Origin: Hoplostethus atlanticus
Lineage: Eukaryota > Chordata > Actinopteri > Trachichthyiformes > Trachichthyidae
NCBI GenBank assembly: GCA_034670405.1
Contig: JAXDDX010000001.1
Coordinates: 19,484,501-19,548,500 of the forward strand
Length of the DNA stretch: 64,000 bases
Direction of reading: 5' to 3'
Position numbers and translations under genes: made by a program. This document shows positions 45,395 to 64,000 of this stretch, piece after piece. A model generated the notes under the pieces. The model was not told the origin of the DNA, did no database searches, and worked only from the letters and a program-made list of their open reading frames with translations. Numbering within the stretch: the first letter of the stretch is position 1; each line of letters starts with the position of its first letter.

Positions 45395-47102
45395 CTCTGA
45401 CCCCTCTGAGGTCAAGAACTACAGACCGGTTTCCCTTCTACCCTTCCTATCAAAAACTCTTGAACGTGCTGTCTTCAAGCAACTGTCCTTGTACCTCCAC
45501 CAGAACAACCTCTTGGATCCCCACCAGTCTGGGTTCAAAGTGGGTCACTCGACCGAGACTGCCCTCCTGGCAGTGACGGAGTCGCTCCATGCCGCTAGAG
45601 CGAACTCTCTCTCCTCTGTCCTGATACTCCTGGACCTGTCTGCAGCGTTTGACACGGTGAACCACCAGATCCTCCTCTCCACCCTTGAGGGGATGGGTGT
45701 CTCAGGCTCTGCACTCTCCATGTTTGCATCCTACCTAACGGATCGCTCCTACCAGGTGACGCTGAGAGGGTCTGTGTCAGAACCACGCAGGCTCACTACT
45801 GGGGTTCCGCAAGGCTCGGTTCTAGGCCCTCTCCTCTTTTCCCTCTACACAACATCTCTTGGTTCTGTTATCCATTCACACGACTTTTCCTACCACTGCT
45901 ATGCAGATGACACCCAGCTGATCCTGTCATTTCCCCCCTCTGACACACAAGTGGAGGCACGCATTGCTGCGTGTCTGGCAGACATCTCGGAGTGGATGTC
46001 GATGCACCACCTGAAGCTCAACCTGGACAAAACTGAGCTGATGTTCCTCCCGGGGAAGGGCTGTCCGCACCGAGACCTGGCCATCACCATTGATAATGCT
46101 GTGGTGACGTCAAATCGGACTGCGAGGAATCTGGGTGTGACCCTGGACGACCAACTGTCGTTCTCGGCAAACATCGCATCAGTGACACGCTCCTGCAGAT
46201 TCCTCCTCTACAACATCAGGAGGATTCGCCCCTTCCTCACTGACAAGGCAGCGCAGGTGCTCATCCAGGCTCTTGTCATCTCCCGCCTGGACTACTGCAA
46301 CTCCCTCCTTGCTGGTGCCCCGGCGTTTGCCATCAGACCTCTGGAGCTTGTTCAGAAAGCTGCAGCTCGTCTGGTGTTCAACCGCCCCAAGTTCTCCCAT
46401 ACAACTACCCTTCTCCGTTCTCTACACTGGCTCCCTGTAGCGGCTCGCATCCAGTTCAAGACCCTGGTGCTAGCCTATAGGGCAGTGAAAGGAACAGCTC
46501 CTTCTTACCTCCAGGCTATGGTCAAGCCTTACACGCCCCGCCCTGACCACTTCGCTCTGCTGCCTCGAGGCGACTGGTTGTCCCCGTCGCTCAGAGGGCC
46601 CTGCGGCCGATCTACACGGTCACGGCTCTTCTCTGTCCTGGCCCCGCAGTGGTGGAATGAACTCCCCACTGATGTCAGGACAGCAGAGTCGCTGCCCATC
46701 TTTCGCCGCAGGCTGAAAACCCACCTCTTCAGGAAACACTACCCTGACTCTTCCCCTTAGCCATGCCTATTTGTCGTCAATTATGTGTCTGGGCTCTTGT
46801 TTATTGGCTCTTGTTCATTTGATAAACTTATTTGTCTTAGCTCTTGCTTATTTGGTTCACTTATTTGTCTTGGCTCTTGTTTATTTGATTCTCTTATTTG
46901 TCTGATTTGTTTAAGATATAGTAGGTTGCTAACTTATTGCACTCTTACCTTAACACTAGTTATGCTCTTAGTTGCTTGTTTAGGAAGGAAATGCACTTAC
47001 GATTTCTGGTGACTAGTAGTTTTCTTGCCTACCTATGTTGAATGCACTTATTGTAAGTCGCTTTGGATAAAAGCGTCTGCTAAATGACTGTAATGTAATG
47101 TA
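45395..47102 (+). mobile_element. 5'-truncated L2-clade LINE with intact C-terminal ORF2
   Basis: A continuous frame runs from about 45399 to the TAG at 46758-46760. It holds the reverse-transcriptase core: NYRPVSLLPFLSKTLERAVF, HQSGFKVGHSTETALLAVTE, LLDLSAAFDTVNHQILLSTL, GVPQGSVLGPLLFSLY and the catalytic YADDTQL. The L2-typical end LHWLPVAARIQFKTLVLAYR and WWNELPTDVR follows. The endonuclease half is missing. The 3' UTR has TTTATTTG/CTCTTG sub-repeats and ends in the shared GCTTTGGATAAAAGCGTCTG block and a (TGTAA)n tail, both characteristic of L2 elements in fish. It inserted in or next to the L1 remnant and looks recent. Confidence 0.88.
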
Positions 47103-47620
47103 ATATTGCATTTTTTTCACTTAGTAGCAGAACGCTAGGCTTCATAATATTAGCTAGCTCCTCACTTACCCCTTGTCTTTTTTATTGGGCTTTACTTAGA
47201 TAGGCTTTACTTAGATAGATCTTTGGCTCCGCCCACTGAGGTTTAACTCAACTAATTCTATTATTATTTCTGCCTCCAGGAAATGTTTGTAGAACTTCTG
47301 CATCTCGCAAACAGTTCCTAATAATGTTTTATCCTTTTTGTTCATCCAAACTGTTTTATTTTCTATTCTGACCTTCCTTGTATTTCTTCTATGAACTCAT
47401 CTCAAATGCACAGCCTTAATCAACATTATATTTGTAACTTTGACATATGAATACCATCTGATGCAAAGATGCTGCAGGGAAGTTGCAGAATGTAGACTGG
47501 TTTGCTGTGGGATGTTTAATCTCATCTTCACACTGTCACACCTCAAGTAACACTCACTCTGTGAATTGGCTGTTGGTTAAAGGGGGGGGGGGGGCTTTTC
47601 ATGGTATTGACTTGGTTGTT

Positions 47621-47648
47621 TTCTTGGAATTGCTTGAGTATGTATATT
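47621..47648 (+). promoter_or_regulatory. Chemokine copy 1 core promoter: STAT/GAS-like site and TATA box
   Basis: TTCTTGGAA at 47621-47629 fits the TTCNNNGAA STAT site. A TATATT box follows at 47643-47648, about 105 bp before the ATG, so transcription should start near 47675. The STAT-like site is absent from the second copy. Confidence 0.5.
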
Positions 47649-47750
47649 GAGAGACAGTAAGAATTTGACAGTAAGCATCAACCAGATCGGAAGAGACCTC
47701 TTGAGACAGCAAAGACTGAAGAACATCATCAATTTTACATTGAAGACACC

Positions 47751-49766
47751 ATGAGGACTCTCTGCTTGACACTGGGAGTGCTGCTGCTCTCTGTCTGCTA
47801 CTGCAACGCTATGCGTAAGTCTGTTTATTCAACTCTCCAGTCAACTCCAAAAAACTGTCGCACTTATTAACACTGGAAACTTTGCAGTGCATTTTCTTGA
47901 AATTAGTATTTCTTTACTGGTATTTGTTTCTGTAAAGCTGAAAAATACATTATGGAAAAAGGTATAACTATATAGCTAACATGCAATGCACATTTAAATG
48001 AAATGAAACTTCCATCTCATTGTAAATAGCCGAGGGAAACAGATTGTATTGTATTTGTATTGCCAGGACAGAAAGGATGTAGGTCAACACGAGAATGTAG
48101 GTTAAGTGACATTTAACTTTGTTTAACCTAACAAATTGATGCAACCAAGAACTTCCCTGGTAAAAAAAAACCAAACCCAAAACAACCTGTATATTACCAC
48201 CACAATTTAAATGATTTGGACAAGGATGAGCAAAATGTATGCCATTTAAATTCCATACAATCCCTAAAAGCAGCAGTGATGCAACACTAAATGGATCAGA
48301 GCATATAATAGTTGTCATATTATTACATCAGAAAATTACATGCATTATAGTACATTTATGTAATGCTATGACTCCATTGCAACATTGGTGTTACCAATAC
48401 AATTGTTGTTGTTTTTTGAAATGAATTGTTTTGTGTGTATTATACCAAACTATATCACATTATAATCATTATGATGAATGCAATATGTGCACACAATGTG
48501 CTTATGCTTCCCGGTAATGCCTCGTGAGCTACATATTTTTTTTAGAATCACGTGCAGCGTTAACTACGGTTCACTGTTGTAACTGTAACCAAGTCAAAGG
48601 TTCAGTCTGGTCTACGGTACTAAACGATCCCCGTTATTTTCACAGCTCACGGCGTGAACGCCTGGGCACCTGTACCCTGCTGCACAGAGTTCGCCGTGGC
48701 GAGGATACCAAAAGCGAAAATTGTCGACATCAGGAAGACCCACAGCAGCTGTCAGGAGATGGGATTTGTGTACGTCTGTGCTTCCCTCTAACGCCCGTTT
48801 CTTTTAGTAGAATGACCCTCAGCACTGAGGCGTTGTCATAAGCGCCGGGCACCCACGGACAAATCGTATTGCGGTTATAGTTATAGGTATAGTTATATAC
48901 TGCGGTCAAGTGAGTCGCGCTGTACATTTTACGGTACGGTATTTTTCATTTAGACGGCGTCGCTCCACCGTCTTTGGTCCAACGCTGCGTCTTTACGGTA
49001 ATAATATAAGTTGACGTACAATAAAAATTAAAGCGTGGCTTGATGTTTATAAGACATCAAATGTATTATAAACTGTGTAATTATTAATGTGCCACAGTGT
49101 CTACGTAACAGAAACGTGCAAACTCGCTTCCCCATGTACAGTACAAGCAGTAAATACAGAAATATAATAGTTCACACAAGGACAAGACCCCGCAGAGAAA
49201 ACGGCTCTCTTTCCCATGCAATGTAAATAATAAATCTATATCTATTCTTACAATTTATTATATTATAATATCACCGCTATATATCACCATAACCGCTATA
49301 TATGACGATAATCACATATAACGACCACAATAATTATTATAATGATGATTACTATCACGCATACAACATATAGTTAGTAAATATTAGAGTAGATCGCTCT
49401 TTATTGTCCCCGAGGGGAAATTGCAGTTAGGATGTAAGGGTGTAAAAAGAAAGAGAGTCACACAACACAATACAATCAGCAAAATTCAAAAACAAATATA
49501 GGAAAATACACAATAGACAAATTAGTGCATTCTAGTGGCAAGAAATAACCTAATTCGCTTTAGTTTAATTTACAGTATATGTCGGCCTATGAGTGTTCTA
49601 ATCGTAGCTTCTGTATTACAGTAACAGCAAAAACTTAGTCTGTTCACTTACAATGTTCCTCCTTGTATCATTCTATCCCTACAGGGTCCATACTGTCAAA
49701 GGGAGACAGATCTGCTACAGCCAGAGAGTGGAGTGGGTAAAGAAGGCTTTCAACGAGTATTACTAG
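47751..49766 (+). CDS. CC chemokine, copy 1 (89 aa, three exons)
   Basis: A secreted chemoattractant for leukocytes acting on G-protein-coupled receptors (family knowledge). Exons: 47751-47814, 48646-48769 and 49685-49766 (TAG), total 270 nt, with intron phases 1 and 2 as in other CC chemokine genes. Residues 1-20 form a signal peptide (MRTLCLTLGVLLLSVCYCNA). The four cysteines are at 33, 34, 57 and 73, with the adjacent CC pair and normal spacing. The N-loop is TEFAVARIPKAKI, and the 3rd strand and C-terminal helix hold GRQICYSQRVEWVKKAF. AATAAA is at 49928-49933, about 160 bp after the stop. Fish CC chemokines expand lineage-specifically, so no orthologous symbol is given. Confidence 0.92.
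49393..49470 (-). repeat. Retroelement 3'-end fragment in chemokine intron 2 (copy 1)
   Basis: The phrase CTTTATTGTCCCCGAGGGGA followed by AATTGC is the inverted 3' tail of a common fish retroposon. The same fragment is at about 57627-57700 in unit 2. Confidence 0.6.
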
Positions 49767-49927
49767 GACTTCGGCGGGTCTCGTTGTTAATGGACGAACA
49801 GCTTTGGTCACTCGGCTTCTTGTTTCAGACATGCCTGACATCAGCTTGTGCACTCTTTATTCAAGGGCATTTTTTATTATCATGAAAACATTTAAAATTT
49901 TTATGCTTTATGGGTGTTAGCCATTTT

Positions 49928-49933
49928 AATAAA
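49928..49933 (+). terminator. Polyadenylation signal, chemokine copy 1
   Basis: Canonical AATAAA about 160 bp downstream of the stop codon. It is conserved at 58157-58162 in unit 2. Confidence 0.7.
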
Positions 49934-51949
49934 CAATCAACGTAAAAATAGAACATAAATAAGACTGGAGCCCTGTTTTGCTCTCATCTTATTTCTATTT
50001 TTCTCTGATATACTGTTACTATTTGCTGCTGCTGGCAATCCAATTTCCCCACAGGGGATCATTAAAGTTTCAGCTTATCATAAAACATGACACATGCATT
50101 TATTAAATGAAAATGAGAAATATATATAACACATAAAATGCAGTATATAACATGCCCACAACTGCCACAGTGTCCACAAATTTCCATTCATCTTGTAGTC
50201 ATTGTTAGTGGAGCACCTCCAGAAAGTGTGTTGTGAAAGATTAGAGGCCTGCATCGTTTGTTTTTACCTTTTCGTATTCTCAAAACTAGATCAAAGAGAT
50301 TAATAGGGATTACATTAAAAATATATATTGGTGGGATGATAATCTGACCAGGATATACACAATGTTCAAAAAATGTTGGGGATTGAATACTTGAATACTA
50401 TGACACATAGTAATATGCATCTACTTTTATTATTAGTTGTACAATTATTATTGCATGACATCATATATTGTAACAGATCCAGTTTCAAGAGCTCCACTAT
50501 TCGCTGTGTTTATCTAAAGAATTACATTAACGATAATTTGAATTATATTTCAATTGTAAGGACAATGCAGGAGCTAGGCATCCGTAGGCTGTGAAAGCGA
50601 TGTCAGTGGACTGCTTAGTGGCTTTGGTTGAGGAGGAGGGACACGGGTGGGGGTACAAAGTAACCAAAGTAGGGGGCTTAGACTTCATATTTACTACATA
50701 TCCTATGAAACTATCATTTGCAGGCCCAATGCTGGACAGCTGAGCTGGCCCTGGAATCCATTGTGGAACTGCCAGTCAAGCCAGCAGGGTCAGCCACCGC
50801 ATTAGCTTAGCCTAGCAGACACAATGTGGTTGTCTGGAATAAGGTACAGGCCCAGCCAACCAGTCTCTGTTTAGGGTGCCTTCATTTTCATTCATTTATC
50901 TGCTTTAGCTTTAATCCCTTTTATAGCTGGAAAAGCTGAGTGGGCTTTAACATCAGAGCCATTACATTACATTACAGGGTCAGTCGGCGCATTAGCGTAG
51001 CCTAGCAGATACATTGTCTGGGATAAGGAACAGGCCCAGACAATCACTCTGTGTTTTGGCATTCGTTTTCTAGGGTAGGGAATGAGGCTAGTCTAGTGTG
51101 GAGCTGAGTATCTTAGCAGTGTTGAGTGTGGCTATCGAGGGGGGTGTTTCTGGGACACCGGAGTCTACTGCTGAGCCTCCTGGAGGTGTTGTGGGCCTAA
51201 TTCAACGAAATGCATCTAAGACGGGAGATACCCATTTGATGACTCCAATGACATCCCCACATTCCTTGTATATCCAAATTATGTCTCTACGTGTAGCACA
51301 AGCAACAGGAGAGAGTTTACAGGGCGGCATACTGTTTTATTTTACACGCACTACAAATACAATAAATTACACCACCAAGGAAATCAACATGAATCTATTA
51401 ATCTGGTCTTTAGCTTTTGAGCCGAGTCCAGGTCGGTGTGTCTTGACTGGAAAAGACAAACACAATTTAAATCAGTCCCAGGCTGCAGTTCTCCAATCAG
51501 CCTTAATTGGCCACAGCTGATGTCTGATGCAGGGAGAACCAGCCTACCAGTGTGATTCTCAACCCCTACCACCAGGAGGAGCTGTCCGACACCACGTCTT
51601 AAGTACCTCTTTGTAGCACATGTTTATACAAAGCTAAAGTGTAGCGTTCACTAGAAGTTAGCGAACTTGTTAGCAAACAACATAAAAGTAGTCGAACACA
51701 CACATGAACTACAAGAGCAAGATGATCGATATAGCACTATAATGCAAAACACTATTAAACAAGAAATCACAAAATATTTACAAATTAGAATTTCAATGCT
51801 AGAAGGAGAGAAATGGTAACCTTAAGCCATTGAGGGAAAAGGGAATCAATGACGCCAATCAATTTCCCAATGCTGTATGGGATGAGCAGTTCATTCCCTC
51901 TTAAAAGTGTTATGTACAGTCTTGTATCCATGGCTCTTTTTTCCCCCTT
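49934..51949. other. Unit 1 downstream non-coding region
   Basis: No recognisable gene. It contains a retroelement tail near 50032-50075, TTACATTACATTAC fragments of L2-type tails near 50960-50980, and two related segments (near 50790 and 50985) sharing a CATTAGC-TAGCCTAGCAGA core. A 140-codon open frame at 51098-51520 is kept in unit 2 but shows no known domain. Confidence 0.55.
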
Positions 51950-52057
51950 TTGTTCCAACCAAGCAGTAGCACACCTGATTCTACTAACCAACCACTAGAG
52001 TCTTTGCTAAGGACCTTGATGGGTAGAATCAGGTGTGCTACTGCTAGGTTGGAACAA
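51950..52057. mobile_element. Short inverted-repeat element (MITE-like), unit 1
   Basis: Arms 51950-51984 and 52023-52057 are 35 bp with one mismatch (left arm starts TTGTTCCAACCAAGCAGTAG). They are separated by 38 bp. The same structure is at 63490-63597 in unit 2. Confidence 0.8.
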
Positions 52058-52134
52058 CTGCAGCCACTGTGGCCCTTTCTGGGTAAGACTGGTGACCCCT
52101 GCTGTACACCCAAGAACCTGGAAAGAGGACACAG

Positions 52135-53846
52135 AGCACAGACCTACGGTTCAACCAAGAATTGTTTATTATAAGAGTGGGGGGAGAAGGGTAAGGGGTT
52201 CTCAAAGGCAACAGAAATTCTTCCCAGCCCGGGGTATCATCCATTGGGGTCTTCAGACTTATTTTCTGGGGAGAAACACATGCCACAAAAATCACTGAAG
52301 AGTCATTGGAGAGTTTTAGTGTCTCACGGTCTAAATGCTTTCAGAGGATGTTCCACCCTGACAAGAATCAAATGCTGTGGGACAAACTGAATGAAGAGAA
52401 GTGGCATGTCAATGCTCCAATTTAGTCCAAATAAATTTTCATGGTGTAATGTTAGCTAGTCAAAATGTTAGCTTTGTATGGAAAGTTCCCCGCTAAGTAT
52501 TTGGAATAGTCCAAACTAGGAAACTGTGACTTGTTTGTATTAAATGGATGCTGGGTAGTGTAGTGTGGTAAACATAAATACATTTAATCATAACTTCTAT
52601 TGATTGAATCCCACCGAAATCAGGCTGAGGAATAAATAGCACTTCGGTGGAGAATGTGATTCATAGTTTGCTACTTGCTACATACTTTGGCTCCCTATAT
52701 GCCAGTGAGTGGGTACGGTGGGATGGGTGGGAGTGTCTTGAAAGTCCAGTGGGTGGGGAGTTTTTGTTCCAAAACAGAGTAAGGACCAGAAAGTGATTTT
52801 TGAAACCCAGAAATCTCACCCCCTGGCCAAGTAATAGTTGGTCATTGGTATTGATCAACTCCCACAGATCTATTATAGTCATTTTATGCTAGGGCGCAGT
52901 AAAATCATACTCATTGCACCTTAAACACCTGCTTTTCTACCAGCCTCTTTGGCGTTTATTTATTTAACATGTATTTATTTATTTTTTTAATTTAATTTTT
53001 ATTGCCAAGAACAAAAAAGAGGTAGAGAAAAAACATAGTCATGACCAATAAAACGTTATACATTGCCAGAGGTTTTTTTGTTTTTCGACAATTGGCTCTT
53101 TGGCGGTTAAAGTTCTAGTTTTCTTTTGTTGTTGGGAAGAACAATAATAATAATAATAAGAGCAATGTATTATCAACCCTATCATTAGTAACAAAAAGGA
53201 TCAAATGTATGAGGTTACATCCTCTGCAATCATTTTCATACTTGCCACTGACTTTACATTAATATTTCAACGTTTGTATGTCAACGCCTGCATCTGCAAA
53301 TGTGCATGGAATGATGTTGATGAATGTGAGCTCATTTCATGCTATAAAAATAGAATAACAAAATAACCTTCAACAATACAAGATAGCCTTTCCACTGAGT
53401 CGAGATGGCCACAGATAAGAGAGACAGAAACAGAGAAGTTGCAGAGTCACTTCACAGTTCCGTGGTGGAGTGAATGATTTTTATCTTTAAACCAAAATAA
53501 TGTTGTGTCCCCTCAATTTCCCCCTAAAGTGACAGCAGCAACAGCAGCGGTGGGAAGCCGAGGGGGTGTGTGGGGACTTCTAGCAGTGATGATTCATGGC
53601 ACTGTCAACTTTATTGGCAATCATCTACTTCTTTCTGTTTGAGAAACTATCCAATTGATTTTTTAAAATTTGATTATTATTATTATTTTTGTATCATACA
53701 TTCAGAATGAACTGCTGCACCCAACGTGTTTGTATTTACTTTATCCATTTAACCATTTATCATAACTAGCTAGATAGCTGTAGACTAGTATGGCTAGTTT
53801 AGTTAACTTAGCTATGCTAACTAGCCAACCTAGGTAACTTAGTATG
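52135..53846. other. Spacer between the duplicated units, no gene seen
   Basis: AT-rich sequence with ATTTATTTATTTTTTTAATT near 52970-53000 and an (AAT)n tract near 53143-53158. A TAGCTAGC/GTTAACTTAGCTA-rich segment just precedes unit 2. No open frame resembles a protein family. Confidence 0.6.
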
Positions 53847-54470
53847 GCTATATTGCATTTTTTTCACTTAGTAGCAGAACGCTAGGCTTCATAATATTAG
53901 CTAGCTCCTCACTTACCCCTTGTCTTTTTTATTGGGCTTTACTTAGATAGGCTTTACTTAGATAGATCTTTGGCTCCGCCCACTGAGGTTTAACTCAACT
54001 AATTCTATTATTATTTCTGCCTCCAGGAAATGTTTGTAGAACTTCTGCATCTCGCAAACAGTTCCTAATAATGTTTTATCCTTTTTGTTCATCCAAACTG
54101 TTTTATTTTCTATTCTGACCTTCCTTGTATTTCTTCTATGAACTCATCTCAAATGCACAGCCTTAATCAACATTATATTTGTAACTTTGACATATGAATA
54201 CCATCTGATGCAAAGATGCTGCAGGGAAGTTGCAGAATATAGACTGGTTTGCTGTGGGATGTTTAATCTCATCTTCACACTATCACACCTCAAGTAACAC
54301 TCACTCTGTGAATTGACTGTTGGTTAAAGGGGGGGGCTTTTCATGGTATTGACTTGACTATGTATATTGAGAGACAGTAAGAATTTGACAGTAAGCATCA
54401 ACCAGATCGGAAGAGACCTCTTGAGACAGCAAAGACTGAAGAACATCATCAATTTTACATTGAAGACACC

Positions 54471-57400
54471 ATGAGGACTCTCTGCTTGACACTGGGAGTG
54501 CTGCTGCTCTCTGTCTGCTACTGCAACGCTATGTGTAAGTCTGTTTATTCAACTCTCCAGTCAACTCCAAAAAACTGTCGCACTTATTAACACTGGAAAC
54601 TTTGCAGTGCATTTTCTTGAAATTAGTATTTCTTTACTGGTATTTGTTTCTGTAAAGCTGAAAAATACATTATGGAAAAAGGTATAACTATATAGCTAAC
54701 ATGCAATGCACATTTAAATGAAATGAAACTTCCATCTCATTGTAAATAGCCGAGGGAAACAGATTGTATTGTATTTGTATTGCCAGGACAGAAAGGATGT
54801 AGGTCAACACGAGAATGTAGGTTAAGTGACATTTAACTTTGTTTAACCTAACAAATTGATGCAACCAAGAACTTCCCTGGTAAAAAAAACCAAACCCAAA
54901 ACAACCTGTATATTACCACCACAATTTAAATGATTTGGACAAGGATGAGCAAAATGTATGCCATTTAAATTCCATACAATCCCTAAAAGCAGCAGTGATG
55001 CAACACTAAATGGATCAGAGCATATAATAGTTGTCATATTATTACATCAGAAAATTACATGCATTATAGTACATTTATGTAATGCTATGACTCCATTGCA
55101 ACATTGGTGTTACCAATACAATTGTTGTTGTTTTTTGAAATGAATTGTTTTGTGTGTATTATACCAAACTATATCACATTATAATCATTATGATGAATGC
55201 AATATGTGCACACAATGTGCTTATGCTTCCCGGTAATGCCTCGTGAGCTACATATTTTTTTTAGAATCACGTGCAGCGTTAACTACGGTTCACTGTTGTA
55301 ACTGTAACCAAGTCAAAGGTTCAGTCTGGTCTACGGTACTAAACGATCCCCGTTATTTTCACAGCTCACGGCGTGAACGCCTGGGCACCTGTACTCTGCT
55401 GCCGAGGGTTCTCCATGGCGAAGATACCAAAAGCCCGAATTGTCGACATCAGGAAGACCCACAGCAGCTGTCAGGAGATGGGATTTGTGTACGTCTGTGC
55501 TTCCCTCTAACGCCCGTTTCTTTTAGTAGAATGACCCTCAGCACTGAGGCGTTGTCATAAGCGCCGGGCACCCACGGACAAATCGTATTGCGGTTATAGT
55601 TATAGGTATAGTTATATACTGCGGTCAAGTGAGTCGCGCTTAAAATTTTGTTGCGCATCTACTGGTGTCCGGTACGGTATTTTTCATTTAGACGGCGTCG
55701 CTCCACCGTATTTGGTCCAACGCTGCGTCTTTACGGTAATAATATAAGTTGACGCACAATTACATTACATTACATTACATTACAGTCATTTAGCAGACGC
55801 TTTTATCCAAAGCGACTTACAATGAGTGCATTCAACATAGGTAGGCAAGAAAACTACTAGTCACCAGAAATCGTAAGTGCATTTCCTTCCTAAACAAGCA
55901 ACTAAGAGCATAACTAGTGTTAAGTTAAGAGTGCAATAAGTTAGCAACCTACTTTATCTTAAACAAATGAGACAAATAAGAGAATCAAATAAACAAGAGC
56001 TAAGACAAATAAGTGTATCAAATAAACAAGAGCCAATAAACAAGAGCCCAGACACATAATTGACGACAAATAGGCATGGCTAAGAGGAAGGGTCAGGGTA
56101 GTGTTTCCTGAAGAGATGGGTTTTCAGCCTGCGGCGAAAGATGGGCAGCGACTCTGCTGTCCTGACATCAGTGGGGAGTTCATTCCACCACTGCGGGGCC
56201 AGGACAGAGAAGAGCCGTGACCGTGTAGATCGGCCGCAGGGCCCTCTGAGCGACGGGGCAACCCGTCGCCTCGAGGCAGCAGAGCGAAGTGGTCAGGCGG
56301 GGGTGTAAGGCTTGACCATAGCCTGGAGGTAAGAAGGAGCTGTTCCTTTCACTGCCCTATAGGCTAGCACCAGGGTCTTGAACTGGATGCGAGCTGCTAC
56401 AGGGAGCCAGTGTAGAGAACGGAGAAGGGTAGTTGTATGGGAGAACTTGGGGCGGTTGAACACCAGACGAGCTGCAGCTTTCTGAACAAGCTCCAGAGGT
56501 CTGATGGCAGACGCCGTGGCACCAGCAAGGAGGGAGTTGCAGTAGTCCAGGCGGGAGATGACAAGAGCCTGGATGAGCACCTGCGCTGCCTTGTCAGTGA
56601 GGAAGGTGCGAATCCTCCTGATGTTGTAGAGGAGGAATCTGCAGGAGCGTGTCACTGATGCGATGTTTGCCGAGAACGACAGTTGGTCGTCCAGGGTCAC
56701 ACCCAGATTCCTCGCAGTCCGATTTGACGTCACCACAGCATTATCAATGGTGATGGCCAGGTCTCGGTGCGGACAGCCCTTCCCCGGGAGGAACACCAGC
56801 TCAGTCTTGTCCAGGTTGAGCTTCAGGTGGTGCATCGACATCCACTCCGAGATGTCTGCCAGACATGCAGCAATGCGTGCCTCCACTTGTGTGTCAGAGG
56901 GGGGAAATGACAGGATCAGCTGGGTGTCATCTGCATAGCAGTGGTAGGAAAAGTCGTGTGAATGGATAACAGAACCAAGAGATGTTGTGTAGAGGGAAAA
57001 GAGGAGAGGACCTAGAACCGAGCCTTGCGGAACCCCAGTAGTGAGCCTGCGTGGGTCTGACACAGACCCTCTCAGCGTCACCTGGTAGGAGCGATCCGTT
57101 AGGTAGGATGCAAACATGGAGAGTGCAGAGCCTGAGACACCCATCCCCTCAAGGGTGGAGAGGAGGATCTGGTGGTTCACCGTGTCAAACGCTGCAGATA
57201 GGTCCAGGAATATCAGGACAGAGGAGAGAGAGTTCGCTCTAGCGCTCTAATAAAAGTTAAAGCGCGGCTTGATGTTTATAAGACATCAAATGTATTATAA
57301 ACTGTGTAATTATTAATGTGCCACAGTGTCTACGTAACAGAAACGTGCAAACTCGCTTCCCCATGTACAGTACAAGCAGTAAATACAGAAATATAATAAT

Positions 57401-57995
57401 TAACACAAGGACAAGACCCCGCAGAGAAAACGGCTCTCTTTCCCATGCAATGTAAATAATAAATCTATATCTATTCTTACAATTTATTATATTATAATAT
57501 CACCGCTATATATCACCATAACCGCTATATATGACGATAATCACATATAACGACCACAATAATTATTATAATGATTATTACTATCACGCATACAACATAT
57601 AGTTAGTAAATATTAGAGTAGATCGCTCTTTATTGTCCCCGAGGGGAAATTGCAGTTAGGATGTAAGGGTGTAAAAAGCAAGAGCGTCACACAACACAAT
57701 AAAATCAGCAAAATTCAAAAACAAATATAGGAAAATACACAATAGACAAATTAGTGCATTCTAGTGGCAAGAAATAACCTAATTCGCTTTAGTTTAATTT
57801 ACAGTATATGTCGGCCTATGAGTGTTCTAATCGTAGCTTCTGTATTACAGTAACAGCAAAAACTTAGTCTGTTCACTTACAATGTTCCTCCTTGTATCAT
57901 TCTATCCCTACAGGGTCCATACTGTCAAAGGGAGACGGATCTGCTACAGCCAGAGAGTGGAGTGGGTAAAGAAGGCTTTCAACAAGTATTACTAG
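54471..57995 (+). CDS. CC chemokine, copy 2 (89 aa, three exons)
   Basis: Exons: 54471-54534, 55365-55488 and 57914-57995 (TAG), again 270 nt. Signal peptide and the four cysteines (33, 34, 57, 73) are identical to copy 1. Compared with copy 1: P22S, then in exon 2 P32L, T35R, E36G, A38S, V39M, R41K and K46R (CCRGFSMAKIPKAR versus CCTEFAVARIPKAK), and in exon 3 Q71R and E87K. All other residues match. The exon 2 changes lie in 48 bases; the rest of exon 2 is identical. Intron 2 carries an antisense L2 insertion of about 1.5 kb, but splice sites are intact. The proximal promoter lacks the TTCTTGGAA site of copy 1; the TATATT box and AATAAA (58157-58162) are kept. It should encode a functional protein. 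Confidence 0.9.
55761..57246 (-). mobile_element. 5'-truncated L2 LINE inserted in chemokine copy 2 intron 2
   Basis: Absent from the matching place in copy 1 (near 49020). Read on the minus strand it begins inside the reverse transcriptase (SFSDILGPICSV-like decay followed by NHQILLSTLEGMGVSG at 57180). It has YADDTQL and runs to the shared GCTTTGGATAAAAGCGTCTG block, ending in (TGTAA)n at 55783-55761. It is nearly identical to the L2 at 45395-47102. Small deletions after MVKPYTP (near 56293) cause a stop, so the frame is broken. The target-site duplication is short or unclear (AAT at both edges). Confidence 0.85.
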
Positions 57996-58156
57996 GACTT
58001 CGGCGGGTCTCGTTGTTAATGGACGAACAGCTTTGGTCACTCGGCTTCTTGTTTCAGACATGCCTGACATCAGCTTGTGCACTCTTTATTCAAGGGCATT
58101 TTTTATTATAATGAAAACATTTAAAATTTTTATGCTTTATGGGTGTTAGCCATTTT

Positions 58157-58162
58157 AATAAA
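58157..58162 (+). terminator. Polyadenylation signal, chemokine copy 2
   Basis: AATAAA about 160 bp after the copy 2 stop codon, in the same place as in copy 1. Confidence 0.7.
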
Positions 58163-60053
58163 CAATCAACGTAAAAATACAACATAAATAAGACTGGAGC
58201 CCTGTTTTGCTCTCATCTTATTTCTATTTTTCTCTGATATACTGTTACTATTTGCTGCTGCGGCGATCCAATTTCCCCACGGGGATCATTCAAGTTTCAG
58301 CTTATCATAAAACATGACACATGCATTTATTAAATGAAAATGAGAAATATATATAACACATAAAATGCAGTATATAACATGCCCACAACTGCCACAGTGT
58401 CCACAAATTCCCATTCATCTTGTAGTCATTGTTAGTGGAGCACCTCCAGAAAGTGTGTTGTGAAAGATTAGAGGCCTGCATCGTTTGTTTTTACGTTTTC
58501 CGTATTCTCAAAACTAGATCAAAGAGATTAATAGGGATTACATTAAAAATATATATTGGTGGGATTATAATCTGACCAGGATATACACAATGTTCAAAAA
58601 ATGTTGGGGATTGAATACTTGGTGACAGTGTACTAGACAATATAAATGATCATAACTCATCATAACTGCACCAGAAAATGTCATAATACACTATGATGCA
58701 TTTTGAATCTGGCATGAGCAATGAGCAAAGATCATTATAAGTGAGGCATGACACATAGTAATATGCATCTACTTTTATTATGAGTTGTACAATTATTATT
58801 GCATGACATCATATATTGTAACAGATCCAGTTTCAAGAGCTCCACTATTCGCTGTGTTTATCTAAAGAATTACATTAACGATAATTTGAATTATATTTCA
58901 ATTGTAAGGACAATGCAGGAGCTAGGCATCCGTAGGCTGTGAAAGCGATGTCAGTGGACTGCTTAGTGGCTTTGGTTGAGGAGGAGGGACACGGGTGGGG
59001 GTACAAAGTAGCCAAAGTAGGGGGCTTAGACTTCATATTTACTACATATCCTATGAAACTATCATTTGCAGGCCCAATGCTGGACAGCTGAGCTGGCCCT
59101 GGAATCCATTGTGGAACTGCCAGTCAAGCCAGCAGGGTCAGCCACCGCATTAGCTTAGTCCTAGCAGACACAATGTGGTTGTCTGGAATAAGGTACAGGC
59201 CCAGCCAACCAGTCTCTGTTTAGGGTGCCTTCGTTTTCATTCATTTATCTGCTTTGGCTTTAATCCCTTTTATAGCTGGAAATGCTGAGTGGGCTTTAAC
59301 ATCAGAGCCATTACATTACATTACAGGGTCAGTCGGCGCATTAGCGTAGCCTAGCAGATACATTGTCTGGGATAAGGAACAGGCCCAGACAATCACTCTG
59401 TGTTTTGGCATTCATTTTCTAGGGTAGGGAATGAGGCTAGTCTAGTGTGGAGCTGAGTATCTTAGCAGTGTTGAGTGTGGCTATCGAGGGGGGTGGTTCT
59501 GGGACACCGGAGTCTACTGCTGAGCCTCCTGGAGGTGTTGTGGGCCTAATTCAACGAAATGCATCTAAGACGGGAGATACCCACTTGATGACTCCAATGA
59601 CATCCCCACATTCCTTGTATATCCAAATTATGTCTCTACGTGTAGCACAAGCAACAGGAGAGAGTTTACAGGGCGGCATGCTGTTTTATTTTACACGCAC
59701 TACAAATACAATAAATTACACCACCAAGGAAATCAACATGAATCTATTAATCTGGTCTTTAGCTTTTGAGCCGAGTCCAGGTCGGTGTGTCTTGACTGGA
59801 AAAGACAAACACAATTTAAATCAGTCCCAGGCTGCAGTTCTCCAATCAGCCTTAATTGGCCACAGCTGATGTCTGATGCAGGGAGAACCAGCCTACCAGT
59901 GTGATTCTCAACCCCTACCACCAGGAGGAGCTGTCCGACACCATGTCTTAAGTACCTCTTTGTAGCACATGTTTATACAAAGCTAAAGTGTAGCGTTCAC
60001 TAGAAGTTAGCGAACTTGTTAGCAAACAACATAAAAGTAGTTGAACACACACA
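58163..60053. other. Unit 2 downstream non-coding region
   Basis: Counterpart of 49934-51670. It differs by a 125-bp segment at about 58620-58745 that unit 1 lacks. The open frame 59447-59869 is the copy of 51098-51520 with two residue changes; no known protein. Confidence 0.55.
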
Positions 60054-60370
60054 TCAAATCAAAACAAATCACATTTATTTGTATAGCCCTTAATCACCGT
60101 TACAGTCTCTAAGGGCTTCACAGTGCCCAACATGTGAAAATAATAAATGGTTAGTACACGACATCCCCCAGCCTTAGACCCTCACAGAGGACAAGGAAAA
60201 ACTCCCACAAACCCTCATTGGGAAAATTGGGAGAAACCTTGGGAGGGGCTACTCAGAGAGGGATCCCCCTACCAGGACGGTTGGGCGTGCAATAGATGCC
60301 GAGTTTGGGCAAGCAGCGTATACACAATATATGAAAGTTTATTTTGGTGGGACGTCCAGATCTGATGGGG

Positions 60371-62087
60371 TCAGTGGCGGAGCCAGGCAATTTTCAATGG
60401 GGTGGCCAGGATGGGACCAGTGGTCATTTTGGGGTGGCACAGAAATCACTATTATATGAACATAAAAATGCGTCTAACTAGAAGGCACCTACAACACATA
60501 ACTCTACATTATTTGGAATTCAGGCAGTGGTGGAATAGATCAAATAATATTCAGTGTATCCAACATTGTTTTCTTATTCCTGCAGGTAAAGTAACAAAGA
60601 AGCTTACACTATAGGGACAAAGTACTAAGTAGTAAGTGTCCCAAGCTACAGAGTATTACTACTGTTCTGAGACAGATGTTCATCATCTTTTACATTTGAG
60701 GTCTGTTTCACAAACTGGCCCTCTGAGCTAGCACTAAAAAAGTAAACTTCTTATTCTTATTATAATTCTTATTATAATTATTCTTATTCTTAAACTTATT
60801 ATTCATTGTCAAAACACAAATTATATAATTGCAAAAACTCTATAATGCCAACATTATACTTATTACAAAGGCAATAATGTATTTTCTTTTTGATCCACCT
60901 GTCTCAAACTAATGCTCAAAGGCAATAATATTCCCCCTGTCTGCAACATATACATATGACATGACTGTGTCACGCATTCAGCTTACAACAGCTGTATTCT
61001 GCGATTATTATTGTTGTTATTATTGTGGTTTGTAGCAAAGCGATTCACAAAACCATCTAAGGCCAGGGACTGTGCTCGTCTAGACTCCACACTTAAACTT
61101 TGCTAAATAGATACAGTCGAAAAGCAATCTTCCTTCTGATATTATTAGCTTACATGTAATCATTTGCAGTGTTGGGCAAGCTACTTGGAAAGTGTAGTGA
61201 GCTAAGCTACAAGATTTATTTTTACATTGAACCAACTTCATTCCAAGTCACTGCTGATCAGTCAAACAGATAGGCAGGCAAACAATGTTCAGTTCAATTG
61301 TTTATTAAATTAGTGTTTGAGGTCTTGGAAGTTGAGAGCAGCTTCTCCTTGGGGTTGCACAGTGAGCACCTGAACGCATCATTTTTCTCTGTTGTTTAAC
61401 TTAAACTCATGTATTAGCTCGAGGTACGGCCACGGCGACTCCCTCGGGATCAATTCCTCTCCGTCCTCACCCTCTGCCATCTTTCCATCAAGCTCGCGGG
61501 TCTGTATTCGCCTGCAGCAGACAAGTCGCAGGCATCAGCCCAAGGATTGGTGCGTGATGTCACCGTCATGCGGAAGTGCTTCTGTCGGCTACACATACAG
61601 GTCCGTGTATGGCGGTGACGTCACTTACTGATCCTTAGCAGTTTTATTTCAGACCAGCAGAAAGCTCCGCTGCGCTTCAGCTTCAGGAATGCTTGGGGAA
61701 ATGTAGCTTGTGTGGACGCTACCGCACTACTTGATCAATAAAAGAGTTTCAATACTGAAAAGTTATTTGATTCAGAAAACAGCGACGCTACTGAGAAATG
61801 TAGTTGGACTAGTAACGCCGTAGCGACGCTACTGCCCAACACTGATCATTGGGTGGTTTACTGGACTTGCCAGTTGTAAAGTCAAGTCTCCAGAGACACT
61901 CGCGCACTAAGATGCATCCCAGGTGTGTTGCGGCTGTACAGAAATGGTTCCGCCTCTAAAAGAAACATTATTCTGCCCAAGAAAAATGCCCCCAAAAGGC
62001 AATTACGACTGGGGTGGCCAATAGGGTGGCCAGGCTTCAGTCCAGGGTGGCCACGGCCACCCCTTGCCACCCCGCAAATCCGCGCTT
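60371..62087. mobile_element. hAT-type transposon inserted in the LINE 3' UTR
   Basis: Ends are CAGTGGCGGA (60372) and, inverted, CAAGCGCGGA (62087). Flanking 8-mers TGATGGGG (60363-60370) and GGATGGGG (62088-62095) match at 7 of 8 positions, as expected for a hAT target duplication. GGGGTGGCC motifs are repeated near both ends. No transposase frame was recognised; it hosts a further element at 61169-61844. Confidence 0.75.
61169..61844. mobile_element. Second, nested hAT-like element
   Basis: Left end CAGTGTTGGGCAAGCTACTT and inverted right end CAGTGTTGGGCAGTAGCGTC. Flanking 8-mers ATCATTTG (61161-61168) and ATCATTGG (61845-61852) match at 7 of 8. It contains a CpG-rich centre near 61430-61620 but no transposase frame. 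Confidence 0.75.
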
Positions 62088-63489
62088 GGATGGGGTGGCA
62101 TCACAGCAACGGCAACTCAGTCAGCGTCATCATAGGACTAGGGGACCATGCAGGCACCAGCACTGCCCAGATAGGAGAACGCAACGTCCGCTCAGTCAGC
62201 ATCGTCCTAGGAGGGGGGACCAACCAGACGCCAACTCTGCCGGGCTGCAGCCTGGAACAGATAGGAGACACACCCACACACACCCATACACACACACTCT
62301 CACTCACACAGACAAACATGACCAGCGTCAGTGGACAGGAGCAGGTAGACCAGGAGAATAGGACATGTAGGCAGGATGCTAGTATCCATCGGCAGGACCC
62401 TGATCTAGGATGAGCTAACTGGTCTAGCCTTACTCTGAGAAGAGACTGAGCCACTCCCTCAAGGCTGGTCAAATGACAGAGAGAATAAATGGGTTTTTAG
62501 CCTTGACTTAAAGACTTCGATAGAGCCTGCCTCTCTGATTGAGGCAGGCAGACTGTTCCAGAGATAGGGAGCCCGGTAAGAAAAGGCTCTGTTACCTGCA
62601 GTTTTCTTTTTGACTGCTGGGATAGACAGGTAGCCAGCGTCCTGAGATCTGAGGGCGCGTGGCGGTTTATAAGGTTTAATCAAATTGGATAAATAGGACG
62701 GTGCCATCCCATGTAATGATTTATATGTAAGTAAAAGCACCTTAAAGTCACACCTGGCCTGAATTGGTAGCCAGTGTAATGAGGACAGGATGGGAGTTAT
62801 ATGGTCGAATTTCCTAGTTTTGGTCAGGATTCTGGCAGCAGCATTCTGGACCAGTTGTAGTTTTTTAGTGCGCCCAGTAGGTAAGCCCGAGAAAAGGACA
62901 TTGCAATAATCGATTCTGGATGATACAAAGGCATGTACTAAAATTTCTGCGTCTGCCTCTGTTAGCATGGGTCGAATTTTGGCAATATTGCGAAGATGAT
63001 AAAACGCTGATTTAGTGATCTCCTTAATGTGCAACTCGAATGAGAGGGTAGGGTCGAATTTTACCCCAAGGTTTTTAACGTATGGGCTCTGGGAGATTAC
63101 ACAACTATCAAAGTTAAGAGTACTATTCTCAAATAAGTGTCTATGTCTAGCCGGTCCCACAATCAGCATCTCAGTTTTGCTGCCATTAAGGAGTAGGAAG
63201 TTTAGGGACATCCAATATTTGACCTCTGATAGGCAGGCCTCTAGTTTGAACTACAAGAGCAAGATGATCGATATAGCACTATAATGCACACTATTAAACA
63301 AGAAATCACAAAATATTTACAAATTAGAATTTCAATGCTAGAAGGAGAGAAATGGTAACCTTAAGCCATTGAGGGAAAAGGGAATCAATGACGCCAATCA
63401 ATTTCCCAATGCTGTATGGGATGAGCAGTTCATTCCCTTTTAAAAGTGTTATGTACAGTCTTGTATCCATGCCTCTTTTTTTCCCCCTT

Positions 63490-63597
63490 TTGTTCCAACC
63501 AAGCAGTAGCACACCTGATTCTACTAACCAACCACTAGAGTCTTTGCTAAGGACCTTGATGGGTAGAATCAGGTGTGCTACTGCTAGGTTGGAACAA
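63490..63597. mobile_element. Short inverted-repeat element (MITE-like), unit 2
   Basis: Counterpart of 51950-52057, with the same 35-bp arms at 63490-63524 and 63563-63597. Confidence 0.8.
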
Positions 63598-63676
63598 CTG
63601 CACCCACTGTGGCCCTTTCTGGGTAAGACTGGTGACCCCTGCTGTACACCCAAGAACCTGGAAAGAGGACACAGAG

Positions 63677-64000
63677 GATTTTCTCTCTTGGTAAGCGTGG
63701 ATACCTCTTAGCATCATGGTTTGAAGGCCATTCGTCCTCTATGCCTGTCTCTCATCAAGGTTTGAATCATTGCTCATAAAGCATGCTGATTGATTACCCC
63801 ATCAGTCTTAAAGGGGAATTCCGGTATTTTTAAACCTTTTAAATTCGTCATCTATACCGCAAAATAGGTACGAAAACTTTTGGAATTGCTCCGGTAGATA
63901 GCCTCAGTCAGCAGTCATGAAACGGGCTGCTATGGCTGCAACGTAATCCGCAGGGGCAAGTGCGCCGATCAAAGTACGTCCACTAAAAGTGCTTGTTTTT
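63677..64000. other. Right edge, dispersed repeat, no gene seen
   Basis: Past the end of the duplicated unit the sequence runs into AAGGGGAATTCCGGTATTTT at about 63811. This is the start of a repeat type common in teleosts; the window ends inside it. Confidence 0.45.

Follow-up and report, generated by a model that had tools for sequence, protein, structure and literature searches.

Four intact copies of a CC chemokine gene are present in the genome of Hoplostethus atlanticus. Two of them, lying in tandem in the window (the whole stretch of 64,000 nucleotides analysed here), differ strongly in a short block at the N-loop. In and just after this block the four copies group differently from the rest of their sequence, and their replacement differences exceed the divergence of the noncoding DNA. 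We think it probable that this peak of divergence has been kept by selection amid exchange between the copies, as in the opsin genes. The original prediction had offered selection or conversion from a third copy as alternatives; the data favour both processes together, and neither of them in its simple form.

Gene structure and genomic copies

Hereafter, W1 and W2 are copies 1 and 2 of the gene, both in the window, while C20 and C2 are the copies on the contigs of those names. Judged by its sequence the gene is a CC chemokine, with a putative role in chemotaxis via a CC receptor. In a Pfam scan of the W2 protein, this protein matched the IL8 family (PF00048) with 43.1 bits against a cut-off of 21.3; its best relative of solved structure is CCL14 (2q8t, E 4.8e-8), and CCL3 is also among the closest. 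W1 and W2, both on the forward strand, each comprise three coding exons bounded by GT/AG splice sites, the open frame being 89 codons long. In W1, exon 1 (47751..47814), which encodes the signal peptide, runs from the ATG to a GT donor that splits codon 22 after its first base; exon 2 (48646..48769, with AG/GT flanks) encodes the CC motif and the N-loop, and exon 3 (49685..49766) includes the stop codon. The corresponding exons of W2 are exon 1 with the signal peptide (54471..54534), exon 2 (55365..55488, the coordinates originally predicted) and exon 3 with the stop codon (57914..57995). GT/AG splice sites and full frames are found in all four copies, each with a putative signal peptide, recognised by eye, on exon 1. 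The genes on C20 and C2 have complete frames and intact splice sites, the signal peptide of C20 being two codons shorter. The cysteines are C33 and C34 (adjacent), C57 and C73 in W1, W2 and C2, and stand two positions earlier in C20. The W2 product is more basic than the others, with a net charge (K+R-D-E, codon 22 onward) of +10, compared to +5 in W1, +3 in C20 and +2 in C2.

The genome assembly comprises 632.8 Mb in 1161 contigs. A DNA search of it with exon 2 and its flanks (301 bases) gave 15 matches, four of which were full length (W1, W2, C20:5258390-5258690 and C2:7184847-7185147), the remaining 11 being short and confined to the 3' end of the query. A search with the W2 protein at E<=1 listed 12 exon matches, accounted for by the three exons in each of the same four genes. 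The Pfam IL8 search of the genome gave 61 matches, including other chemokine exons. Among 30 of these 61, the nearest other chemokine is 46% alike over 28 residues, and the best matches (40-50% over 20-32 residues) proved too distant to serve as an in-genome outgroup for rooting. Weak chemokine-like matches below the family cut-off lie at C14:398, 6331 and 12293, spaced by about 5.9 kb at the contig start, and at C9:6730; when compared, these contig-start matches bore no resemblance to this gene.

Contig C1 stops 529 bases past the window (C1:19548501-19549029). Since this end is so close to the duplicated unit, more copies of the gene could be missing from the assembly. The duplicated unit spans kilobases around each of the four copies, and the outer flanks compared differ. 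Pairwise noncoding divergence between the copies is 1.0 to 2.5%. A check for doubled haplotypes covered the window flank and the C20 flank. A flank piece of 1377 bases from the window occurs once in the assembly, and the copies therefore look like paralogues, not unpurged haplotypes. The C20 flank (1800 bases) opens with ~375 bases of dispersed repeat; for the remainder, 40 of 133 candidates were scored, and it matched none of these but itself. Our data thus comprise four sequences from one assembly.

In the window, the unit occupies 47103..52439 for W1, whose left side is cut off by a LINE fragment (45489-47104), and 52432..64000 for W2, both on the forward strand; the latter carries inserts at 55764-57248 and about 60058-63246, and its similarity to C2 continues for about 197 bases beyond the window, stopping about 330 bases short of the contig end. 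The first insert, a LINE-type reverse transcriptase fragment on the reverse strand (55764..57248), lies in intron 2 of W2 and is absent at that place from the other three copies. The two related LINE-type fragments, 45489-47104 and 55764-57248, are in opposite orientation and 96% alike, and 45489-46760 matches RVT_1 (Pfam). The unit starts at the same base (TAAATTTTCATGG) in three places, namely window 52432-52439, C20 about 5246381 and C2 about 7188540; C20 and C2 share six more bases than the W1/W2 junction, and the bases further out look unrelated. Such a precise common edge, odd for random duplications, could mark the end of a mobile element or a reused breakpoint. To the right of the chemokine unit C20 and C2 share another 4.5 kb, 93% alike, with a long open frame (C20 5266321-5267715, 465 codons from stop to stop) that has a lysine- and glutamate-rich repeat end. 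Both unit copies in the window also contain an open frame of 140 codons (51098-51520 and 59447-59869), with a similar frame in C20 and C2; the copy at 51098 had no Pfam match.

The divergence block

Alignment of the 301-base exon 2 regions confirmed the ten differences between W1 and W2 that had been predicted. They fall in 43 bases, not in the 48 originally given, covering codons 32-46 around and after the CC motif (W2 55395..55437, W1 48676..48718, forward strand). In W2 they stand at 55395, 55403, 55404, 55407, 55412, 55415, 55422, 55435, 55436 and 55437, and a pair and a triplet of adjacent bases among them may each be a single event. Comparison of the translations gave the seven residue changes expected (P32L, T35R, E36G, A38S, V39M, R41K and K46R). 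The single silent change claimed, A45 from GCG to GCC, is also there; by path-averaged counting, however, the changes in codons 32-46 come to 8 replacement and 2 silent. As had been noted, exon 2 is otherwise identical, with 0 of 30 differences before the block and 0 of 51 after it, and the low divergence upstream was likewise found (5/621 in the 5' region and 0/830 in intron 1, well under 1%).

Across the unit, 57 of the 5001 bases that can be compared differ between W1 and W2, 47 of them among the 4958 outside the block (0.95%). The block is their densest 43-base window, and not even 9 differences were reached in any of 1000 shuffles. Three further replacements separate the two proteins: P22S, caused by the final base of exon 1, and Q71R and E87K in exon 3. 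The N-loop is a segment that contacts the receptor in related chemokines.

The block is not special to W2: all four N-loops differ (W1 PCCTEFAVARIPKAK, W2 LCCRGFSMAKIPKAR, C20 VCCQEFAMGRIPKAQ, C2 VCCIEFAVARIPKAK), and the mature protein varies in further places as well. In codons 32-46 the replacements number 8 between W1 and W2, 7 between W1 and C20, 3 between W1 and C2, 7 between W2 and C20, 8 between W2 and C2 and 5 between C20 and C2. The cysteines, Phe37, Ile42 and Pro43 are constant in all four proteins. Elsewhere in the mature protein, the varying codons are 22-24, 52, 68, 70-72, 82, 87 and 88. In an alignment with CCL3 and CCL14, codons 68-71 fall on the 40s loop, a binder of glycosaminoglycan in CCL3 and CCL5.

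The block is the densest 43-base window in two of the six pairs, W1-W2 and W2-C2 (0 of 1000 shuffles each); the remaining four pairs have theirs next to gaps, near alignment columns 4499 or 5490. Its density is unusual in W1-C20 (16/1000 shuffles) and C20-C2 (22/1000), and no higher than chance in W1-C2 (996/1000) and W2-C20 (405/1000). Note that the pairs with chance-like density are the same pairs that are grouped by the tree of the tract described below.

Mosaic history of the four copies

Across the whole unit there are 51 informative sites, of which 43 pair W1 with W2, 8 pair W1 with C2 and W2 with C20 (the flipped grouping), and none supports the third grouping. Six of the 8 flipped sites form one unbroken run, such a run being given by 22 of 200000 shuffles. 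The tract so defined (W2 55403..57256, forward strand) has its sites at 55403, 55415, 55435, 55436, 55650 and 57256, together with a 19-base indel at 55651-55669; the LINE fragment is an insertion within it. The N-loop block holds four of the sites; the other two lie in intron 2, as does the indel, which shows the same grouping. Convergence of residues alone is therefore no explanation. When just the noncoding sites are considered, the flipped grouping of the tract is supported by a pair of neighbouring sites, of which the second lies in A-rich sequence, and by one indel. The tract likelihood was lnL -742.18 for (W1,C2)(W2,C20) and -762.89 for (W1,W2)(C20,C2), a gain of 20.7 for the flipped tree. 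As judged from these sequences, either sequence has moved between copies or old alleles have been sorted unevenly.

Upstream of the block the picture is the opposite. Intron 1 and the start of exon 2 of W1 (47815..48675, forward strand) run for 860 comparable bases without a substitution relative to W2, with one 1-base indel; a stretch of this kind was given by 20 of 20000 shuffles, or by 105 of 20000 when the block differences were left out. Intron 1, used as a baseline by the original prediction, does have low divergence but is thus itself unusual, and in it W1 and W2 are each about 1.5% from C20 and C2. Because the substitution-free stretch runs up to the block, recently homogenised sequence gives way to older sequence at the block edge. 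When shared polymorphic sites were examined by a run test, the result pointed to exchange between W1 and W2 (p 0.010, upstream of the block) and between C20 and C2 (p 0.009). The same test detected no exchange between W2 and C20 (p 0.77) or between W1 and C2 (p 0.054, elsewhere in the unit), which is what would be expected with later private changes or with sorting of old alleles.

A near-identical donor, which conversion from a third copy predicts, was not found: the 48-base pattern, allowing up to 3 mismatches, occurred in the 632.8 Mb just in W2 itself. The DNA, W2 protein and Pfam IL8 searches also gave no third donor; all of these searches were prefiltered and not exhaustive. Conversion thus found no support in the simple form in which it had been proposed, but draws support from the flipped grouping of the block and the 5' part of intron 2 as against the rest of the unit.

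Tests of selection

In the block (codons 32-46), W1 and W2 differ by 8 replacement changes over 34.3 sites and 2 silent changes over 10.7 sites, giving a dN of 0.279 and a dS of 0.216 (dN/dS near 1). With 34.3 of 45 sites being replacement sites, at least 8 replacements in 10 changes are expected in over half of cases, and this ratio was rejected as proof of selection. Since 8:2 is near the random ratio, the replacement-only appearance of the block is by itself no evidence of selection. For codons 33-63 alone, fitted with separate branch lengths, an omega of 1 was not rejected (omega 1.9, p 0.38 on the flipped tree; 1.0 on the main tree). However, W2 differs from C20, the member of its own tract lineage, by 7 replacements and 0 silent changes in codons 32-46.

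The replacement excess appears when noncoding DNA is the yardstick, namely the intron 2 part of the tract for the tract codons and noncoding DNA outside the tract for the others. Ka/Ki was then 4.9 for the tract codons (p 2e-4), 6.3 for codons 21-32 (p 6e-4) and 4.1 for exon 3 (p 0.0016); the signal peptide, at 0.78 (p 0.8), had no replacement excess. Silent divergence in the block is higher than that of the noncoding DNA, which suggests age or a locally high mutation rate and weakens Ka/Ki as a test. Since exchange can also lower noncoding divergence, a further test was run without noncoding DNA. With a mixed topology, in which codons 33-63 follow the flipped tree and all other codons the main tree, omega for the mature protein was 3.95 (p 0.027); of 138 simulations under omega = 1, a single one gave so extreme a value. 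With one tree throughout, omega was 2.68 on the main tree (p 0.075) and 4.57 on the flipped tree (p 0.014). Thus, the selection that had been predicted found no support in the replacement to silent ratio of the block, but it did in the Ka/Ki values of 4 to 6 and in the omega of the mature protein. Selection on the mature protein is likely, resting on few sites.

Three groups of similar chemokine loci are present in the genome, and exon scoring covered the pairs on C33 and C82. The C33 pair had 0/96 differences in the exon match, 0/69 in the second exon and 6/3078 overall. In the C82 tandem pair (2155195-2159438; L035 and L046) there were 5/162 in the exon match, which contains stops and is probably in part intron, compared to 14/2966 around it. 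These counts suggest that a divergence peak is not general in recent chemokine duplicates of this genome, although the C82 pair may hold a weaker one.

Alternative explanations

In our preferred reading, a genome segment that bears an intact CC chemokine gene was multiplied recently, giving the tandem pair in the window and the single copies on C20 and C2. Diversifying selection would act on the mature protein at its N-terminus, in the N-loop and in the part encoded by exon 3, where the 40s loop and the C-terminus lie, while the surrounding DNA would stay similar through recent duplication and exchange between copies. The N-loop blocks of W1 and W2 would then be two older sequence lineages, W2 with C20 and W1 with C2, which conversion or unequal exchange brought or kept inside otherwise very similar neighbours, each lineage acquiring more replacements afterwards. 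What we infer from the sequences is a role of selection in the making of the block, beyond that of age or mutation, as well as the direction of the exchange and a functional difference at the level of the receptor. A bolder version, in which a pool of N-loop cassettes is moved among dispersed copies by ectopic exchange, so that ligand specificity is diversified by shuffling and not by point mutation alone, is speculative and in our view doubtful.

Another possibility, which we consider unlikely, is that the N-loop alleles predate the duplication and that the tandem pair arose by unequal crossing-over of divergent haplotypes, with neither later conversion nor recent selection. The raised silent divergence of the block, the flipped topology common to the block and the 5' part of intron 2, the absence of a donor elsewhere in the assembly search and a run test without W2-C20 or W1-C2 exchange would all fit. 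However, the 860 substitution-free bases upstream need a recombination or homogenising event at the block edge, and the replacement excess also lies outside the tract, in exon 3 and at the N-terminus. We regard as improbable a single conversion event, without selection, in which a distant, unsampled or lost chemokine copy wrote the W2 block. The runs of adjacent changes and the mixture of silent and replacement changes do look templated, and further copies may be missing, as C1 ends 529 bases past the window. Yet no other site lies within 3 mismatches of the 48 bases, the protein search (E<=1) gives exons of these four genes only, and since all four copies have different blocks, several donors would be needed.

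A local mutation hot spot or a cluster of multi-base mutations, again without selection, would account for the raised silent sites and for differences that neighbour each other. It seems highly improbable, because the 51 bases of exon 2 that follow the block are free of differences in W1-W2 and hold no more than 1 in any pair, the flipped grouping is not predicted by it, and the C33 pair has 0/96 in its exon match, though the C82 pair has 5/162. Least weight of all goes to an assembly artefact, with a collapsed or chimeric W2 exon 2. The repeated segment does adjoin a contig end, but the unique flank piece of 1377 bases occurs once with no doubled haplotype seen, the four loci have intact and distinct but related blocks, and the LINE insert marks W2 as a separate locus.

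Comparison with known systems

A divergence peak at a selected site in duplicates under gene conversion has been described for exon 5 of the human red and green opsin genes (Teshima and Innan 2008, via PMC3924837). As far as the consulted parts of that source go, the opsin pair and these chemokines have in common one diverged exon stretch, low divergence in the flanking introns and introns more alike between neighbours (PMC3924837). The opsin pair is dated there to ~30-40 million years, whereas here there are four copies, two of them on other contigs, with 1.0-2.5% noncoding divergence. In contrast to the opsins, our case is one of sequence alone, and recent homogenisation is indicated mainly by one stretch of 860 bases. 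The Tigriopus GOT1 paralogues, in the sections of PMC3728101 used here, are likewise a mosaic of high and low divergence with variation transferred between paralogues; GOT1 is, however, a metabolic enzyme studied with population data, while ours is an immune ligand in one genome.

Species-specific tandem expansions of CC chemokines are reported in zebrafish and catfish (PMC2416438, PMC4690017, in the portions consulted), and the recent lineage-specific duplication seen here resembles them. Those accounts, in the same portions, deal with copy number and phylogeny, whereas ours concerns divergence at the level of a block; the terms 'gene conversion' and 'positive selection' are absent from PMC2416438. 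Conversion between CC ligand genes, coding exons included, is described for the primate CCL cluster in the part of PMC3161012 consulted, a likeness to the exchange between CC ligands proposed here, but CCL had the least conversion of the five clusters compared there; an excerpt of PMC5627130 cites work without any conversion in CC ligands. Among the titles and abstract openings listed from the open-licence literature (for one query, 15 of 46 papers), we found no account of such an N-loop block in fish chemokines.

How new copies of fish CC chemokines come to bind differently is rarely caught in the act. The copies described here are 1.0-2.5% apart in noncoding DNA, and they already differ mainly in the putative contact segments for receptor and glycosaminoglycan. 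In known chemokines, these segments contact the receptor and glycosaminoglycan. If the binding of the four products does differ, they would show ligand change among duplicates at an early stage, brought about in part by exchange between loci.
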